From: a virus
Length of the DNA stretch: 28,913 nt
IMG/VR virus record: IMGVR_UViG_3300020396_000027
Coordinates: 1-28,913 of that record
Direction: 5' to 3' (one strand)
Below, piece after piece: positions 2,801-28,913 of the stretch. A program made the translations under genes and the position numbers. The notes beneath the pieces were generated by a model. That model saw nothing but the letters and a program-made list of their open reading frames with translations. It had not been told where the DNA came from and made no database searches. Numbering within the stretch: position 1 is the first letter of the stretch; every line of letters begins with the position of its first letter.

Positions 2801-4354
2801 ATGTCAGACGCAATTGTCAAAAATCTCAGCTTTGGTAACGAAGCTAAGGATCAACTATTTGAAGGTATTAACAAACTTACAAAAGCCGTTAGTTCCACGC
2901 TAGGAGCTAGCGGTAAACGTGTAATATTAGAAGATGGAGGAGGAAAACCTATCATAACAAAAGATGGAGTAACTGTTGCAGATTCAATAGTGCTATTAGA
3001 TCCAATAGAAAATATGGGTGCAACGCTTTTAAAAGAAGCTGCTAGGAAAACTGTTAAAGAAGCTGGCGACGGAACGACAACGGCTACAGTGCTAGCACAC
3101 TCTATATTAACACACGCTTATCCTAAACTAGAGGAGCTTGGGTCAAGAAAGCTAAAAGAAGGTATCGATACTGCTGTTAACAAAGTTATAGATTATTTAG
3201 AAAAAAATTCAATAACAGTAACTGGTCAAATGATAGATCAAGTTGCAAATATTTCTACAAATAATGATAAAGCATTAGGCACGGTTATAGCTCAAGCATT
3301 TAGATCAGTAGATGAAACTGGTGTTGTAATGATGGAAGCTACAGAATTATCAGAAACTACCTCTGAATTAATAGAAGGTATGCAATATGATAAAGGACTA
3401 ACAAATTCCCATTTTGTTACTAAAGCAGAAACAAGAGTTGCGGAATTAGATAATCCAGTAGTTTTACTTATTGAATCACCTGTTGAAAATATAAGAAAAA
3501 TACAAAGTATACTAGAGCATGTTATTAAACATAATGAATCATTACTTATTATTGCTGATTTAGAACCAAAAGTTATTTCTGCTTTAGCTATGAACAAAAT
3601 AAAAGGTAATATAAAAGTAAATGTTATTAATGCTCCTACCTACGGTATAACTAAAAAAGATATGCTAACAGACTTAGCATTATTAACTGGTGCTACTATT
3701 ATTAATGAAGATTTAGGTGATGATATGGATATGATATTGCCTGAACATTTAGGAAAATGTATTAAAGCTGTAACTAGTGATACTGAAACAATAATTAAAG
3801 TTGAAAAAATAACCGACGAAGTAGCAGCTATTATAAATACTATAAAAAAAGACTTAAATAAAAAAAATACTGCTCCTGAAGTTATAAGATTAGAAAAAAG
3901 ATTAGCCAGATTATCTGCTAAAATTTCTACTGTAAAAGTAGGGGCAGATTCAAGTATAGAGCTAAAAGAAAAAACTGATAGAGTAGAGGACGCTATTTGT
4001 GCTACTAAAGCTGCCATTAAAGAAGGCATTGTAGCCGGTGGAGGAGTGGCGCTTTTAAATGCCGCTATGTTTATTAAACCTAAAGATAAAGCTGAAAGCA
4101 TTCTTTTGGATGCAATCAAAGCTCCCTATCACACTATCCTAGACAACGCTAATATTAGTGAAGCACACTCCGAAAAAGAAGGATGGGGATTAGATGTGAT
4201 AACGGGTAAATCGGTTATAATGGTTAAAGCTGGTATAATCGATCCTTTATTAGTAACAAAAGCAGCACTTAAAAATGCAGCTTCTGTTGCAACAACTATT
4301 TTATCTACTGATTGTATAATTAATAATTTAAGAATTAATGAAGGCAATAGGTAG
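2801..4354 (+). CDS. groEL: Phage-encoded chaperonin GroEL (Hsp60)
   Basis: This 517-residue group I chaperonin is close to full length (E. coli GroEL is 548). Equatorial-domain signatures are intact: DGVTVA with Asp55, the nucleotide-binding GDGTTTATVL with Asp90 (equivalent to Asp87 of E. coli), VEDA with Asp397 (equivalent to catalytic Asp398), and VAGGGVALL at about 411-419. The apical domain is recognisable from the IRKIQSILE helix and SLLIIADLEP. The Gly-Gly-Met tail of bacterial GroEL is absent; the protein ends LRINEGNR. All ATPase residues I can check are present, so it is probably active. It would form a folding chamber, likely for capsid or other abundant phage proteins. The start is the ATG behind an AATTAAATC leader. 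The 3' end overlaps groES by 17 bases, and the order groEL-groES is reversed relative to bacteria. Confidence 0.97.
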   Translation: MSDAIVKNLSFGNEAKDQLFEGINKLTKAVSSTLGASGKRVILEDGGGKPIITKDGVTVADSIVLLDPIENMGATLLKEAARKTVKEAGDGTTTATVLAHSILTHAYPKLEELGSRKLKEGIDTAVNKVIDYLEKNSITVTGQMIDQVANISTNNDKALGTVIAQAFRSVDETGVVMMEATELSETTSELIEGMQYDKGLTNSHFVTKAETRVAELDNPVVLLIESPVENIRKIQSILEHVIKHNESLLIIADLEPKVISALAMNKIKGNIKVNVINAPTYGITKKDMLTDLALLTGATIINEDLGDDMDMILPEHLGKCIKAVTSDTETIIKVEKITDEVAAIINTIKKDLNKKNTAPEVIRLEKRLARLSAKISTVKVGADSSIELKEKTDRVEDAICATKAAIKEGIVAGGGVALLNAAMFIKPKDKAESILLDAIKAPYHTILDNANISEAHSEKEGWGLDVITGKSVIMVKAGIIDPLLVTKAALKNAASVATTILSTDCIINNLRINEGNR

Positions 4355-4598
4355 AAATTTAATTATAAGTAAAGATAAGCAAGGAACTTCTGAAACAAAA
4401 GGTGGTCTGCTTGTATCTGAAAATCAACGAGAAGATTTAAGATATAATAAAGCAAAAGTAATTTCAATAGGATCCGAAGTTGTAGGCGTTAAAGAATTAG
4501 ATAATATTTATTATGATAATGCGGCCGGTCATAACATAGAAATAGATAAAATTATTTATCAAGTTATAAAACTTCAAGACATTGTTATAGTAATATGA
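4338..4598 (+). CDS. groES: Phage-encoded co-chaperonin GroES
   Basis: This 86-residue protein matches the 10-kDa co-chaperonin in length and pattern. Features are an N-terminal strand KAIGRNLII, a mobile-loop region SETKGGLLVSEN (residues about 18-29, with LLV where bacteria have the IVL-type GroEL-contact tripeptide), KAKVISIGSE, and the C-terminal strand KLQDIVIVI. It should cap the GroEL ring encoded immediately upstream. The start codon lies inside the end of groEL (17-base overlap), and its stop overlaps the next start (ATGA), indicating a translationally coupled three-gene unit. Similarity to bacterial GroES is low in the middle part, where the 'roof' residues lie. A second, larger GroES-like protein is encoded at 9591-10196. 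Confidence 0.9.
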   Translation: MKAIGRNLIISKDKQGTSETKGGLLVSENQREDLRYNKAKVISIGSEVVGVKELDNIYYDNAAGHNIEIDKIIYQVIKLQDIVIVI

Positions 4599-5256: not shown

Positions 5257-5403
5257 ATGGAAATTAATGACATTAAACTTATAGCCCTAAATGGGTCTGT
5301 AGGTGTTGTGACAATGATGGATTTAGAGGTTTGGTTAAAAGTAATTTTGTTAATTGTTACAATCGGTTATACACTGAGTAAGTGGATTAAAATAAAAAAG
5401 TAA
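5257..5403 (+). CDS. Short single-pass membrane protein (48 aa)
   Basis: A 48-residue frame starts at the ATG at 5257 and ends with TAA at 5401-5403. It fills the otherwise empty gap between two small genes, and its stop overlaps the next start by one base (TAATG). The product reads MEINDIKLIALNG, then a hydrophobic stretch around VWLKVILLIVTIGYTLSKW (about residues 25-43), ending with a Lys-rich tail KIKK. That is one membrane helix with a positive C-terminus. Similar minute proteins with a 'L-LIVTIGYT--KW' helix occur in phages of Bacteroidota, and may be lysis or membrane-attachment factors. Coding status is inferred from the tight fit between neighbours and the coherent membrane helix. 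Confidence 0.65.
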   Translation: MEINDIKLIALNGSVGVVTMMDLEVWLKVILLIVTIGYTLSKWIKIKK

Positions 5404-7443: not shown

Positions 7444-7479
7444 ATATGCCTCTTGTTTCGGCAGGAGGTATATAATTTT
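7444..7479 (+). terminator. Hairpin terminator after the 7059-7433 gene
   Basis: A 12-bp stem pairs 7444-7455 (ATATGCCTCTTG) with 7462-7473 (CAGGAGGTATAT), with two G-T wobbles and a 6-base loop. An AATTTTATTTAT stretch follows directly. This is the shape of an intrinsic terminator or mRNA 3'-end stabiliser. The 3' arm contains AGGAGG, which here is better explained as stem sequence than as a ribosome-binding site. Confidence 0.65.
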
Positions 7480-7485
7480 ATTTAT

Positions 7486-7641
7486 ATGAAAGCAACAGGA
7501 CTAGGTGATACAATTGAAAAAATAACAGCTGTAACAGGCGTTAAAAATGTTGTAGGATCAATTTTTAAAAGCTTAAAAAAACCTTGTGGTTGCCAAAAAA
7601 GAAAAGAAGCTTTAAATAAAAAATTTCCTTATGGCGTTTAA
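7486..7641 (+). CDS. Small CxC-motif phage protein (51 aa)
   Basis: I place the start at the ATG at 7486. An in-frame TTG at 7453 lies inside the upstream hairpin and would add an uncharacteristic MFRQEVYNFIY extension. The 51-residue product has a small amphipathic N-terminal part (LGDTIEKITAVTGVKNVVGSIF) and a C-terminal PCGCQKRKEALNKKFPY. This 'CxC-xxR-xx-LN-xxFPY' ending recurs in very small phage proteins near lysis and structural genes; its function is unknown to me. The two closely spaced Cys could bind metal. The frame overlaps the following metallopeptidase-like gene by 11 bases, suggesting coupling. Confidence 0.7.
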   Translation: MKATGLGDTIEKITAVTGVKNVVGSIFKSLKKPCGCQKRKEALNKKFPYGV

Positions 7642-7939
7642 ATTAAACACACCACCTTATAATCAAGATAATACACCTATATATAGTGTAGATTTAGGAA
7701 ATGATGTTTTAGGTAAAGCTAATAATAATGGAACTATACTAGTTAATAAATATTTAAATCCAAAAAAAATTGATAAAGTAGTTGACCATGAGATGGTACA
7801 CATAGATCAATTTAAACGAGGAGATTTAGATTATGACGATAAAAATGTTTACTGGAAAGGTAAAACATATTCTAGAAGTAAAATGCAAGAAGGTGCTAAA
7901 AAACTTCCTTGGGAAAAAGAAGCTTATGATAAAGCTTAA
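7631..7939 (+). CDS. Minimal HExxH metallopeptidase-like protein
   Basis: This 102-residue protein carries HEMVH at residues 53-57 in the context VVDHEMVHIDQ, the zinc-binding and catalytic motif of metallopeptidases. A downstream Glu-containing motif, LPWEKEAYDKA (Glu95 or Glu97), is a plausible third zinc ligand, as in gluzincins. At about 100 residues it is among the smallest such domains, but the HExxH...E layout in so small a protein is a recurrent phage theme ('HE-VH-DQ ... WE-EAY'). There is no signal peptide. It is encoded between the CxC protein and a 3TM holin, so it may be a lysis enzyme cutting peptidoglycan cross-links. Assembly-related proteolysis or an inactive structural role are alternatives. 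Confidence 0.75.
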   Translation: MAFKLNTPPYNQDNTPIYSVDLGNDVLGKANNNGTILVNKYLNPKKIDKVVDHEMVHIDQFKRGDLDYDDKNVYWKGKTYSRSKMQEGAKKLPWEKEAYDKA

Positions 7940-7941
7940 TT

Positions 7942-8322
7942 ATGTGGAAATTATTACTAGGTTTAATAAAAAGCGGCGATAATAAAAAATCAACAGCAGG
8001 TAATTTAGCATGGGAAATTCGTGAAGCTATTAAAGGCAAAGAATTAGATCCTAATGAAATTATTGAATTACAAACTAAAATAAATGAAATTGAAGCAGGG
8101 CATAGAACACTTTTTGTTGCCGGCTGGAGACCTTTTATAGGCTGGATTTGCGGAGTAGCATTAGCGTATAACTTTGTAATCAGAGATTTATTTATTTGGA
8201 TTACAAAAACAGCTGACGCTCCACCAGCGTTACAAATGGAGCATTTAATGACTGTACTATTAGGTATGCTAGGCCTTGGAGGTTTGCGTACTTTTGAAAA
8301 AATAAAAGATAAAACAAAATAA
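7942..8322 (+). CDS. 3TM holin of the GTA-release type
   Basis: This 126-residue protein has a soluble N-terminal half with a helix (residues about 33-56, ELDPNEIIELQTKINEIEAGHR). The segment AGWRPFIGWICGVALAYNFVIRDL follows, then a polar loop (TADAPPALQM) and a final hydrophobic LMTVLLGMLGLGGLRTFEKIK. The signatures 'GWRPFIGW-CG-ALAY' and 'LLGMLGLGGLRT-EK' are those of the Pfam family GTA_holin_3TM (holin of 3TMs, for gene-transfer release). It should form membrane lesions that let a muralytic enzyme reach the cell wall at lysis. It starts 2 bases after the HExxH protein, supporting a lysis cassette. Confidence 0.88.
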   Translation: MWKLLLGLIKSGDNKKSTAGNLAWEIREAIKGKELDPNEIIELQTKINEIEAGHRTLFVAGWRPFIGWICGVALAYNFVIRDLFIWITKTADAPPALQMEHLMTVLLGMLGLGGLRTFEKIKDKTK

Positions 8323-9367: not shown

Positions 9368-9598
9368 ATGTCTAGTATTATAAGAAAAATCAGTATTGGT
9401 TCTGATTATAAAAATGATGCCATGCATTACTCCGTTGGCCAAGAAGTTTATGGAGGACATAAAATAGCTTATATCATATTTGAAGATACTGATGGTTCTT
9501 ATAATATTTTTATTAAAAAAAACAACGAAGTTTTACCATGGAAAAAGTTTAATACTAATATGGCTGTATCCGTTGAATATAATTTAGAGTATGAATAG
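9368..9598 (+). CDS. Small conserved phage protein (76 aa)
   Basis: I choose the ATG at 9368, one base after the preceding stop (TAAGATG). An earlier in-frame ATG at 9344 would lie inside the preceding gene. The 76-residue product begins MSSIIRKISIGSDYKNDAMHYSVGQEV and continues with DGSYNIFIKKNNEVLPWKKFN and a C-terminal VSVEYNLEYE. It reads as a small beta-rich domain. I recognise the overall pattern as a small conserved phage protein located near terminase genes, but not its function. Its end overlaps the following GroES-like gene by 8 bases, so the two are probably coupled. Confidence 0.7.
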   Translation: MSSIIRKISIGSDYKNDAMHYSVGQEVYGGHKIAYIIFEDTDGSYNIFIKKNNEVLPWKKFNTNMAVSVEYNLEYE

Positions 9599-10196
9599 TA
9601 TATATGATTTTATTGTTGAACCAATAGGAAAAAGATACGATAATACTTTAAAAATAAATAATAAAAATTTAATACTAAATTCTAATATAGAATCTTTTAA
9701 ATTTATAAATAAAAAAGCTAAAGTAATTTCTACACCATTAGCGTATAATACTTCAATAAAAATAGGCGATGAAATAATAATACATCATAATGTTTTTAGA
9801 AGATATTACGATATAAGAGGTAAAGAAAAAAATAGCAGTAAGTATTTTAAAGATAATTTATATTTTTGTCAAATAGATCAAATTTATTTATACAAAAATA
9901 ACAATAAATGGCAATCCTTTGGAGATAGATGCTTTGTTAAACCTATTTTAAATAACGATCATTTAAAGCAAGATAAAGAGCAAAGTCTTATTGGTATATT
10001 AAAATACGACAATAGCTCTTTAAACGAGCTCGATATTAGCTCTGGTGACCTAGTAGGCTACACACCTAATGGGGAGTGGGAATTTATAATAGACAATGAA
10101 CGTCTATATTGTATGAAATCAAATGATATTGTTATTAAATATGAATACAAAGGAAACGAAATTGAATATAATCCGGGCTGGGCAGTTAGCAGTTGA
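9591..10196 (+). CDS. Tandem GroES-like (co-chaperonin-fold) protein
   Basis: This 201-residue protein appears to contain two GroES-like units. The first, about residues 5-103, opens FIVEPIGKRYDNT, then KAKVISTPLAYNTSIKIGDEIIIHHNVFRRYYDIRG, which parallels the 'GK-V------VK-GD-V-F' core of GroES. The second, about 112-185, runs CFVKPI..., IGILKY, DISSGDLVGYTP, EFIIDNERLYCMKSNDIVIKYE, and matches the C-terminal part of GroES ('GD-V-Y---E--ID-E-LI---DI--I-E') quite closely. No clear mobile loop with the GroEL-contact tripeptide is visible. It lies just upstream of the terminase, 5 kb from groEL/groES. It could cap the phage chaperonin, act in head assembly, or be a repurposed structural protein. 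The fold call is from pattern recognition. Confidence 0.65.
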   Translation: MNSIYDFIVEPIGKRYDNTLKINNKNLILNSNIESFKFINKKAKVISTPLAYNTSIKIGDEIIIHHNVFRRYYDIRGKEKNSSKYFKDNLYFCQIDQIYLYKNNNKWQSFGDRCFVKPILNNDHLKQDKEQSLIGILKYDNSSLNELDISSGDLVGYTPNGEWEFIIDNERLYCMKSNDIVIKYEYKGNEIEYNPGWAVSS

Positions 10197-18774: not shown

Positions 18775-19530
18775 ATGTCAATAAACGTAAATACTGTATA
18801 TCAAACAGTGTTGTCTATTTTAAATAAAGAACAAAGGGGGTATATGACACCTGATGAATTTAATAAAGTAGGAACACAAGTTCAGCTTGAAATATTTGAA
18901 AAATATTTTGAAGATCTAAATCAACAAGCTAGGGTTCCTCAAAGCAATTTAAACTATGCCAACAGATTAGAAAATATAGATGAAAAAGTAGCTATATTTA
19001 AAACGTTTGGTAATGCTGCTTATAATAATGTTTCTGTAACTCCCACTAATTATTTTACGTTACCTACAGTTGATGCTTATGGAATATCTGTAGAATTATA
19101 TAGAATAGGTGAAGTAACACATAAAGATCAGGTACTTATACAAAGACTTCAAAGAAATGATTTTTACACTTCTGAAAAATCAAAGTTAACAAAAGCAACT
19201 GAAACTTTTCCTACGTATTTATATGAAAACAATTATTTATTTGTAAAGCCTAATAGCATTACAAGTAACGTACAAGTTGAATATGTAAGAAAGCCTTTAG
19301 ACGTTATATGGGGATTTACAATAGGTTCTAGAGGGCAGTATCTTTTTAATGAGAATGCTTTTAATCCTTCAACAGAAGTTGGATCAAGAAATTTTGAATT
19401 GCATATAAGTGAACAATCTGAAGTTATATTAAGAATATTAATGTATGCAGGAATTATAATAAGAGATCCTCAAATAATACAAGCAGCCGCTCAACAAGTG
19501 CAGATGGATGAAATAAACGAAAAAAGTTAA
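18775..19530 (+). CDS. Head-tail connector / ring protein
   Basis: This 251-residue protein begins NVNTVYQTVLSILNKEQRGYMTPDEFNKVGTQVQLEIFEKYFEDLNQQARVP. The 'T-Y-TVL---NKEQRGY-TP-EFN----QVQLEIFE-YF-DLNQ' pattern matches, as I remember, the ring/tail-tubular-like proteins of crAss-like and related podoviruses. A central region, PTYLYENNYLFVKPNSITSNVQVEYVRKPLDVIWGF, is beta-rich, and the C-terminus is helical (EVILRILMYAGIIIRDPQIIQAAAQQVQMDE). In these phages such rings stack below the portal to form the neck of a short tail. It is followed 6 bases later by the 407-residue partner. The family placement is by recollection of the pattern, not by search. Confidence 0.75.
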   Translation: MSINVNTVYQTVLSILNKEQRGYMTPDEFNKVGTQVQLEIFEKYFEDLNQQARVPQSNLNYANRLENIDEKVAIFKTFGNAAYNNVSVTPTNYFTLPTVDAYGISVELYRIGEVTHKDQVLIQRLQRNDFYTSEKSKLTKATETFPTYLYENNYLFVKPNSITSNVQVEYVRKPLDVIWGFTIGSRGQYLFNENAFNPSTEVGSRNFELHISEQSEVILRILMYAGIIIRDPQIIQAAAQQVQMDEINEKS

Positions 19531-25190: not shown

Positions 25191-26711
25191 ATGGGAGCAA
25201 TAGTAGAAGTTAAATATTTTAATAGTTTTTTGTTAAAAAAAGCCACAAAAGCCGATAACACACCGGTCTGGAATGGCTCTTTTGGCATACCTGGCTATGC
25301 CCCTGGAAATACTTTAGTTCAACCTCCTGCTGTTTCTAATGCAACAAAAAATTGGGTTATTGAAGAATCAAGAATAAGAGGTGGATATAATAATGATAGT
25401 GTTACTTATGGGCCTAGAGCTTATTTAGTAGAAGAAGAACCTAATGCTAGATATAGAACAAGCTCAATAATATATTCAGGTATATTTAATTCTAGAACAG
25501 GTATTAATAATAGCAATGTGTTTAGTGTTGGTACAGATATTACTAGAAGTTTAAATCCCGCAAACGGAACTATTCAAAAATTACATTCTCAAGATTATTA
25601 TTTAACTATTTTTCAAGAAGCTAAAGTTAGTAGAGCTCCCATAAACAAAAATGTAATCTATTCGGCTGAGGGCAACCCAACAGTTACTACAAGTAATATG
25701 GTAATTGGTGAGCCTCAAGCATATAATGGTAACTTTGGTATTAGTAAAAATCCAGAAAGTCATGCTGTTTACGGCTTTAGACAATACTTTACAGACAAAG
25801 ATAGAAATGCAGTATTAAGATTATCTAACAATGGTTTAGAAGAAATACAGCGTTATGGTATGTATGATTTTTTTAGAGATAAATTAAGTACTTTAGATAG
25901 CCCGCTGGGGCCTAAAGGTAAAGCTTTAGGAGCTTGGGATATACACACTAAACAATATGTATTATCTCTTCAACCAGCTGTAAATTATACAGTTAATGCA
26001 ACAGGCGAAAATGCTGATATTAATTATTATACTTTATCATTTGATGAATCAGTAAAAGGTTGGACAAGCTTTTACGATTATAAGCCTGGTATGGGAGCAA
26101 GTGTAAAAAACTTTTATTATACTTTTCCTGCGGCTAGTTACAGTAATAGTATAAAAGGATTATATCAACATAATGTTGAAACTGTATTTAGAGGACAATT
26201 TTATGGAGCTAATTATGCCTCAAAAATTAAATTTATTTTTAATCCTAATGTTAGTGTGTCCAAAGTATTTAAAACAATTAATTATGAAGGCAGCAATGGC
26301 TGGCAAGTAGATAGTTTTGTTTCAGATAGAACTGGAATAGGATCTATAAATACTTTACCTTTTGAAAATACAGCTCTTGGGCAAATCTATAGTCAGTCAA
26401 ATACATTAGATACTACAGCTTTTATATATAGTTATAATGAAGGCGCATATGATAATTTTGGAAATACTTTTCCTGCGGCAATGGTTCCTCCTATTAATAG
26501 AGCAGGTTTTAATAGGAAAGAAAATAAGTATATGACTAATTTAATCAATAGTAGTAGCCCTGTCTCAGAAGAAATAATATTTGGCGATCAAATTACTGGT
26601 ATTAAAGGCTACTTTACTACTGTAACCATGTCAACTGACACTGTTACAGATTTAGGTGGTATGAAAGAAATATTTGCTGTATCTTCGGAATACGTAGGAT
26701 CAAGCTATTAA
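25191..26711 (+). CDS. Tail tip/muzzle partner protein (506 aa)
   Basis: This 506-residue beta-rich protein contains WVIEESRIRGGYNNDSVTYGPRAYLVEEEPNARYRTSSIIYSGIFNSRTGINNSNVFSVGTDITRSLNPANGTIQKLHSQDYYLTIFQEAKVSRAPINKNVIYSAEGNPTVTTSNMVIGEP (about 60-180, in several short segments). The 'ESRIRGG-N---V--G-RAYLVEEE' and 'IYSGIFNSRTG-NN-N-FS-G-DITRS--P--GSIQKL' elements recur, as I remember, in the C-terminal half of very large muzzle/stabilisation proteins of these phages. Here they form a separate gene 34 bases after the giant gene. Functionally it probably completes the tail tip and contacts fibres. The fission hypothesis is tested in a separate finding. Confidence 0.72.
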   Translation: MGAIVEVKYFNSFLLKKATKADNTPVWNGSFGIPGYAPGNTLVQPPAVSNATKNWVIEESRIRGGYNNDSVTYGPRAYLVEEEPNARYRTSSIIYSGIFNSRTGINNSNVFSVGTDITRSLNPANGTIQKLHSQDYYLTIFQEAKVSRAPINKNVIYSAEGNPTVTTSNMVIGEPQAYNGNFGISKNPESHAVYGFRQYFTDKDRNAVLRLSNNGLEEIQRYGMYDFFRDKLSTLDSPLGPKGKALGAWDIHTKQYVLSLQPAVNYTVNATGENADINYYTLSFDESVKGWTSFYDYKPGMGASVKNFYYTFPAASYSNSIKGLYQHNVETVFRGQFYGANYASKIKFIFNPNVSVSKVFKTINYEGSNGWQVDSFVSDRTGIGSINTLPFENTALGQIYSQSNTLDTTAFIYSYNEGAYDNFGNTFPAAMVPPINRAGFNRKENKYMTNLINSSSPVSEEIIFGDQITGIKGYFTTVTMSTDTVTDLGGMKEIFAVSSEYVGSSY

Positions 26712-27880: not shown

Positions 27881-28913
27881 ATGGCAATACCAATACCATC
27901 ACCTAAAAGAGGAGGTGCTTACGAAAATCCAGAAACAGTAGTTGTTTCTCAAGCGGCGCCGTATGTAAATGCAATAAATTCTTTTGCTAACGCTTTCGTT
28001 ACGGCATCAGAAGGCTTAGTTAAAATAAAAAATGAAAAGCTTAAAAAAACATTAGCAGAGCAGGCTAAACTTGCTAAAGATGTTTATATAGATCCTGCTA
28101 AATTTTTACAAAGATTTGAAAAAGCCGGGGCAACCGAACAGGAATATGATATTGTTAATAAATTATTTGATGAAAACGCTCAATTACAGTTAGATATTGA
28201 AGCAGGTTCTTACACGAAAGAAAATTATAAGGACCTAATGTCTCAAAAAAACCAAACGCTTACTAAGCTAAACCAAATGATTGGATTTGCTGGAGAAGGC
28301 ACAAAATTTAAAGCTAAATGGGCTGAAGATTTTAGAGAACAGGTGCGAACTATGAGCAATCAAGGATACGCCTCTGTTGCTGGGAATGAAGATTATATTG
28401 CGGCAGCAAATGTATTTGCAGGTGTAACTAGCGCTGAAAAGCCTGGAAATGTTGAAATATTTTTTCAAGAAGGTACTGATGCTCAAATGGTTAGAATTAC
28501 AGGAGGAGATTTGTCAGAGGCATATGAAATGCCATTAGCTTCTTTTTTATCTAATCAACTTCCTACTGTGCCTAAATACGATGATGAAATAATTGAATCA
28601 TTAAAAAATAATAATATTTTAGATAATAACGGGCGATTAACTAAGTATGCAAAAAATATGACAGAAAAACAATATTTTGCAACAGTTAATAATCTTGTAG
28701 CTACTAAAATAGAAGGATTTAGTGAAGATATAAATCAAGCTAATAGTTTAGGCTTAGAAGTATTTGGGCTTAATAATCCATTTACTTTGTCAATGCAAGA
28801 TGGTGTTCCTGGAACAGAATTAAGTCCAGAAGATCAAAAAACGTTAACAGCCGCAGGAGAAGCGTATACCTTAACTATTATACCCAAGCATGTATACGAG
28901 CCAGATGGACCTA
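27881..28913 (+). CDS. Probable internal virion/cargo protein (3' end outside window)
   Basis: A long open frame starts at the ATG at 27881, after an A-rich leader (ACATAAATAATGGC), and remains open to the window end: at least 344 residues. The N-terminus reads AIPIPSPKRGGAYENPETVVVSQAAPYVNAINSFANAFVTASEGLVKIKNEKLKK. It is followed by a helical region with Lys/Glu-rich coils (residues about 45-150) and a mixed alpha/beta part (EYDIVNKLFDENAQLQLDIEAGS; VEIFFQEGTDAQMVRITGGDLSEAYEM). There is no membrane segment. Being the next gene after the gp14-like protein and apparently large, it most likely corresponds to the T7 gp15/gp16-type internal or crAss 'cargo' proteins. No catalytic motif is visible in the portion present. 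Confidence 0.7.
   Translation, partial: MAIPIPSPKRGGAYENPETVVVSQAAPYVNAINSFANAFVTASEGLVKIKNEKLKKTLAEQAKLAKDVYIDPAKFLQRFEKAGATEQEYDIVNKLFDENAQLQLDIEAGSYTKENYKDLMSQKNQTLTKLNQMIGFAGEGTKFKAKWAEDFREQVRTMSNQGYASVAGNEDYIAAANVFAGVTSAEKPGNVEIFFQEGTDAQMVRITGGDLSEAYEMPLASFLSNQLPTVPKYDDEIIESLKNNNILDNNGRLTKYAKNMTEKQYFATVNNLVATKIEGFSEDINQANSLGLEVFGLNNPFTLSMQDGVPGTELSPEDQKTLTAAGEAYTLTIIPKHVYEPDGP

Follow-up and report, generated by a model that had tools for sequence, protein, structure and literature searches.

Minimal zincins such as IrrE/PprI, Spartan, and the minigluzincins abylysin and selecase resemble, in overall arrangement, the predicted structure of the HExxH protein described here, all at alignment scores (VIA-align Z) below 8, and have no PDB sequence match of note to its family. 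Phage members of PHROG families 16532 and 10499—from Methylophilales phage Melnitz-3, Xanthomonas phage XacN1, and Ochrobactrum phage OC—keep the HExxH motif together with PWExEA; these proteins are 140–168 aa long with no adjoining holin in the stretches inspected, whereas the protein reported here has 102 residues and lies beside a holin. That holin belongs by profile to the GTA_holin_3TM (PF11351)/phrog_3427 holins, but no endolysin gene lies next door. Among the literature entries inspected on phage HExxH metallopeptidases, endolysins, and holins, we noticed no mini-zincin of this kind.

At the genome level, Elemovirus and Cellulophaga phage phi38:1 (Pervagoviridae) order their GroES-like, terminase, portal, and structural genes as the present phage does. 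Their lysins are an M15_4 peptidase and an annotated amidase endolysin, respectively; an M15 peptidase is also encoded by MW202828.1, and a peptidase for Tenacibaculum phage Gundel and an amidase for phage Calle are among the entries listed in PMC8776804. Elemovirus, phi38:1, and Gundel yielded no HExxH homologue at E ≤ 0.01.

The Window Is a Fragment of a Marine Phage Genome

The window, by which we mean the whole stretch of DNA analyzed, is a virus contig of 28,913 bases, a 28.9-kb piece of a phage of ~60 kb. It encodes groEL, two groES-like genes, the large terminase subunit, and a portal protein. The terminase shares 61.6% identity with its counterpart in MW202828.1 (a 60,850-bp circular genome), 47% with that of Elemovirus, 38% with that of phi38:1, and 31% with that of Gundel; terminase relatives amount to 87 records in all, the phages of Maribacter, Cellulophaga, and Tenacibaculum being less closely related.

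Several window genes are recorded here as context. GroEL and one GroES-like gene occupy 2801–4598, and the second GroES-like gene lies near the terminase at 9591–10196 (phrog_5725, phrog_3188, phrog_13932). A crAss-type muzzle C-terminal domain at 25191–26711 (PF25729, E 3.3e-12) hints that the phage is related to crAss-like phages. In the structural protein at 18775–19530, an N-acetylglucosamine-binding domain (PF18416) scores below threshold (E 0.0025).

A Three-Gene Locus Ends in a GTA-Type Holin

The initial annotation had described three overlapping or abutting genes—for a 51-residue CxC protein, a 102-residue HEMVH protein, and a holin of the gene-transfer-agent type—and all three are present on the plus strand (Table 1). 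The HExxH ORF overlaps the CxC ORF by 11 nt, and the holin ORF begins 2 nt past its end.

Table 1. Features of the window bearing on the proposed lysis locus
Feature	Position	Strand	Basis or remark
48-aa single-TM protein	5257..5403	+	Hydrophobic 15–46; relatives often directly precede lysin gene
CxC protein, 51 aa, basic, CGC motif	7486..7641	+	ORF call; conserved relatives
102-aa HExxH protein, soluble, single-domain, zincin-like (predicted)	7631..7939	+	phrog_16532/phrog_10499; invariant motif; model pLDDT 86.5
HEMVH motif, residues 53–57	7787..7801	+	Sequence; H, E, H invariant in 63/63
WEKEAY motif, residues 94–99	7910..7927	+	W94, E95, E97, A98, Y99 invariant in 63/63
Holin, 126 aa, GTA_holin_3TM family	7942..8322	+	PF11351; phrog_3427
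Open-ended ORF at window end	27881..28912	+	Relatives continue with giant late gene, then lysin

The length of the CxC protein is counted from an ATG; an alternative TTG start at 7453 would give 62 aa, and the relatives compared span 47–58 aa. Computed net charge is +8, and a hydropathy scan found no hydrophobic stretch. As judged from sequence, the CxC gene is not lysis-specific, because its homologues in Nonlabens phage P12024L and Microcystis phage Mel-JY01 sit without any annotated lysis gene in the stretches inspected.

For the holin, the proposed GTA-type identity was borne out by PF11351 (E 1.5e-9; 38.9 bits against a cut-off of 24.8) and by the holin family phrog_3427 (E 4.9e-25), and on these matches we take the gene to be a genuine late holin. 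Kyte–Doolittle hydropathy did not by itself confirm the proposed three TM segments: it gives one broad hydrophobic stretch at ~57–88 and another at 102–118. Other holin groups of the relatives match phrog_3427 yet fall below the PF11351 cut-off or miss this family altogether.

The HExxH Protein Is Strictly Conserved and Predicted to Be a Minimal Zincin

A single IMG/VR scan for the HExxH protein returned 385 relatives, and the 80 best-scoring ones were retrieved. Among the loci, 112 proteins were labeled HExxH; 99 of these are 95–112 aa long, comprising 63 distinct sequences, and the 13 longer or shorter proteins were omitted from the invariance count. Residues H53, E54, H57, Q60, W94, E95, and E97 are unchanged in all 63. 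In an alignment of 48 rows (two N-terminal pieces from long forms together with the 46 sequences left when the 63 were thinned to below 97% identity), H53, E54, H57, W94, and E95 hold without exception and Q60 and E97 in at least 90%. Such constraint points beyond chance to a genuine gene. The zincin signature, HExxH with a downstream acidic ligand, is present throughout the 63 sequences: H53 and H57 should be zinc ligands together with E95 or E97 as the third, with E54 as the predicted catalytic residue.

Profile searches placed the protein in two PHROG families of unknown function, phrog_16532 (E 6e-10, residues 35–100) and phrog_10499 (E 4.5e-9, residues 50–100), which the Melnitz-3, XacN1, and OC homologues match as well. 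Pfam gave no match above its curated cut-offs, the sub-threshold matches being putative metallopeptidases, and NCBIfam gave none; across the Pfam, NCBIfam, and PHROG profile searches no peptidoglycan hydrolase family was matched. A PDB sequence search with the family profile returned two chance-like hits (E 0.22 and 0.23). The absence of a signal, also remarked on initially, is upheld in that no hydrophobic stretch could act as signal or anchor.

The AlphaFold2 model built on the 48-row alignment (pLDDT 86.5, pTM 0.72) places HEMVH within a helix at residues 44–63 and WEKEAY within the last helix, at 93–101. Foldseek against the PDB found nothing at E ≤ 0.001, the best match being abylysin (E 0.048). 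VIA-align Z scores were 6.2 for IrrE/PprI, 4.6 for the DNA–protein crosslink (DPC)-repair protease 6mdx (which we take to be Spartan), 4.1 for selecase, and 4.0 for abylysin, all below 8 and hence in a range that may reflect merely a common arrangement. Viral models matched better: 11 at E ≤ 0.001, the best of them (E 1.8e-11) an uncharacterised 301-aa protein. SprT-like names occur on three of these 11, with the SprT-like models at E 2e-4. We read the protein as a probable soluble minimal zincin that is weakly IrrE-, Spartan-, or minigluzincin-like.

Relatives That Cover the Lysin Site Carry Conventional Lysins

Profile searches of the window gave no match to PF08291, PF01510, or PF13539, and a Pfam scan covering 23 window proteins returned no lysin family; the ten outside that scan comprised GroEL, GroES-like, terminase, portal, capsid, and small proteins. 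Within these searches the initial remark that no classical lysozyme or amidase is visible stands, and it says little because the window is a fragment whose contig stops short of the lysin place known from relatives.

Lysins were therefore looked for in the 38 contigs (G numbers) behind the loci (L numbers), one of which, G012, has no HExxH gene. As lower bounds—because an Amidase_2 in G030, added by blastp and confirmed with hmmscan against Pfam (E 2.1e-12), had been missed by profile search—M15_3 (PF08291) occurred in 11 of 26 contigs and then in 5 of 12, PF01510 (Amidase_2) in 3 of 27 including the window's and, by profile search, in 0 of 12 others, and PF13539 in 0 of 16 including the window's. 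At least 20 of the 38 contigs carry a lysin overall.

Every HExxH contig that reaches the gene convergent on the late operon (12/12: G001, G002, G003, G005, G006, G007, G008, G013, G027, G029, G030, and G033) encodes a peptidoglycan hydrolase of a conventional type: 10 have M15_3 and 2 (G006 and G030) have Amidase_2. These are not 12 independent events, because the contigs are related and the G002 and G008 M15 proteins are identical. G012 reaches the convergent gene without a lysin, but it has no HExxH gene and lacks the groEL–terminase segment in which other contigs have theirs. G034 passes the usual lysin place without a lysin and then ends; it lacks the stretch upstream of groEL, which is where the M15 gene of G004 and G021 sits. 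The remaining lysin-less contigs end before the lysin place.

One of these relatives is G001 (60,934 bp), whose HExxH protein is 87% identical to that of the window. It looks complete, in that its terminase gene is divided between the two ends of the contig, the way it would be in a closed genome, and its last late gene, ~29 kb downstream of the holin, is an intact M15_3 peptidase (Pfam E 3.6e-16; phrog_894, endolysin, E 1.8e-24). Tracing the window's own lineage toward this place, searches with the last ORF and with the beginning of the giant gene led to one locus and four loci, respectively, of which only L234 (that is, G013) reaches it; no contig of the window's closest subclade does.

The initial annotation had raised the possibility of a minimal lysis cassette, with the HExxH protein perhaps serving as an endolysin in the form of an unusually small metallo-endopeptidase. 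The adjoining holin and the lack of M15_3, M15_4, and Amidase_2 in 28.9 kb make this reading tempting, and we now consider it very unlikely. It fails on the evidence that the covering relatives carry a conventional lysin: the search for another endolysin in the rest of the genome, which the annotation had named as a check, was run on relatives, the window's genome being incomplete, and succeeded in every one that covers the site. The protein also matches no lysis family and has homologues outside lysis contexts. A variant in which it replaces M15 as endolysin was rejected because the two occur together, in five loci (L097, L133, L136, L139, and L161) as well as in the long contigs. These comparisons remove a poorly supported claim.

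Three observations on the lysin regions are noted separately. A PAP2-like phosphatase (L182:4509-5063; PF01569, E 5.9e-6, just below the cut-off) is encoded two genes before the G001 M15 gene. In G004 (L193:18133-19463), M15 is immediately preceded by genes for a TM and a lipoprotein-like protein, which look by eye like a spanin pair. G027 (behind L258; 129.5 kb) has two M15 matches, at 31910–32212 and 94161–94466, ~62 kb apart, and is perhaps two genomes joined in assembly.

The HExxH Gene Stays near a Holin in Related Loci

We tallied neighborhoods in 161 loci including the window, 107 of which carry HExxH. The holin is the next gene after HExxH in 78/107 and no more than three genes away in 102/107; it lies four genes on in L144 and L167, and none was found near HExxH in L092, L097, and L105. 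This nearness persists even where the holin subtype differs and, because the loci are related, may be inherited order. The HExxH site is covered in 77 loci; six lack the gene, and four of those six retain the holin.

Outside these loci, GenBank holds HExxH homologues in seven records representing four kinds of phage (CRP-9, Melnitz, OC, and XacN1), in which the direct neighbors have no TM segment and no holin is adjacent. Melnitz encodes a two-TM protein two genes upstream of the homologue and a GH108 lysozyme four genes upstream; in OC, a gene annotated as the lysis-inhibition gene rIII lies three genes downstream.

Persistent proximity to holins, which fall in different sequence groups that all match phrog_3427, speaks for an accessory lysis protease. 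Such a protein would reach the periplasm via the holin and cut an envelope protein—for example an outer-membrane-to-wall tether—or tune the holin, while M15 or the amidase still cuts the wall. We regard this as possible but doubtful: the holin occurs without HExxH at the site in four of the six covered HExxH-less loci and again in L203 and L204, homologues in other phages lack an adjacent holin, and G004 has its TM and lipoprotein-like pair before M15 as well as HExxH. The proposal that the zincin serves an abundant marine phage group as a third, dedicated lysis factor, depending on the holin and severing protein links of the envelope instead of peptidoglycan in place of spanins, appears slightly less probable again.

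A virion or assembly role, in which a protease packaged in the capsid or active in morphogenesis would process virion proteins or be delivered alongside the DNA, strikes us as rather unlikely as well, though less so than an accessory one. HExxH lies in the late region among genes for proteins of unknown function, many of them Lys-rich, and in L101, L104, L117, and L134 the domain bears a tail of 276–376 aa; searched as separate genes, however, these tails hit nothing beyond the long HExxH proteins. A start resembling FK.K..SP is shared by other late proteins, but as a virion signal the N-terminal SP motif was set aside as unconvincing, since the late strand shows no clear enrichment (4 observed vs. 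2.26 expected in G001; 3 vs. 2.18 in G002); the other strand gave 2 vs. 1.25 and 3 vs. 0.81, respectively. Virion proteomics was found for none of the phages with an HExxH gene.

An Intracellular Protein Substrate Is the Favored Reading

We consider it probable, with some reservation, that the HExxH protein is a soluble zincin-like protease that acts within the infected cell at a late stage, cleaving a protein of the phage or the host, and is not the endolysin. H53, H57, and E95 (or E97) would hold the zinc and E54 would activate water. The wall would most likely be cut by an M15_3 peptidase whose gene, going by G013 and G001, lies ~27–29 kb downstream from the holin gene, at a place past the giant late gene and several kilobases beyond the contig end. 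An intracellular protein substrate thus ranks as most likely and a virion or assembly role next, with a lysis-accessory role possible and wall hydrolysis unlikely.

The favored reading draws on the invariant HExxH and WExEAY motifs (63/63), the lack of a signal or anchor stretch, the lysins of all 12 covering relatives, and the SprT-like names among the fold matches; the M15 peptidases of MW202828.1 and Elemovirus, the phi38:1 amidase, and the homologues without an adjacent holin agree with it. Against it, nearness to the holin in 102/107 loci is compatible with a function in lysis, albeit among related loci; the window genome ends before the lysin place, which no contig of the closest subclade covers; the PDB fold matches are weak; Melnitz has lysozyme and two-TM genes, and OC an rIII-annotated gene, in the neighborhood; and G034 runs past the usual lysin place without a lysin before it ends. 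What the analysis leaves is a widespread, strictly conserved phage mini-zincin as a testable candidate protease.

A Small TM Protein Often Precedes the Lysin

The comparisons also locate the lysins of this marine phage lineage: M15 or amidase genes, which often close the late operon and often adjoin a gene for a TM protein of 48–54 aa. In G011, G030, G032, G033, and L161, the lysin (M15 or amidase) directly follows the homologue of the window's 48-aa TM protein; a small TM protein that looks similar by eye comes before the lysin in G006, L203, and L204. In the latter two, the holin gene is followed immediately by the small TM gene and then by M15, and the fetched stretches contain no HExxH. 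No lysin follows the small TM gene in the window, and the gene is likewise separate from the lysin in G001, G002, and G021.

Two further window-related proteins deserve mention. In a near relative, the giant late protein (L230:11575-14577) holds a HELLH motif of its own. The window protein at 1977–2438, outside the finding of the initial annotation, has two hydrophobic segments and may belong to lysis, because its relative in G021 overlaps the start of the M15 gene.
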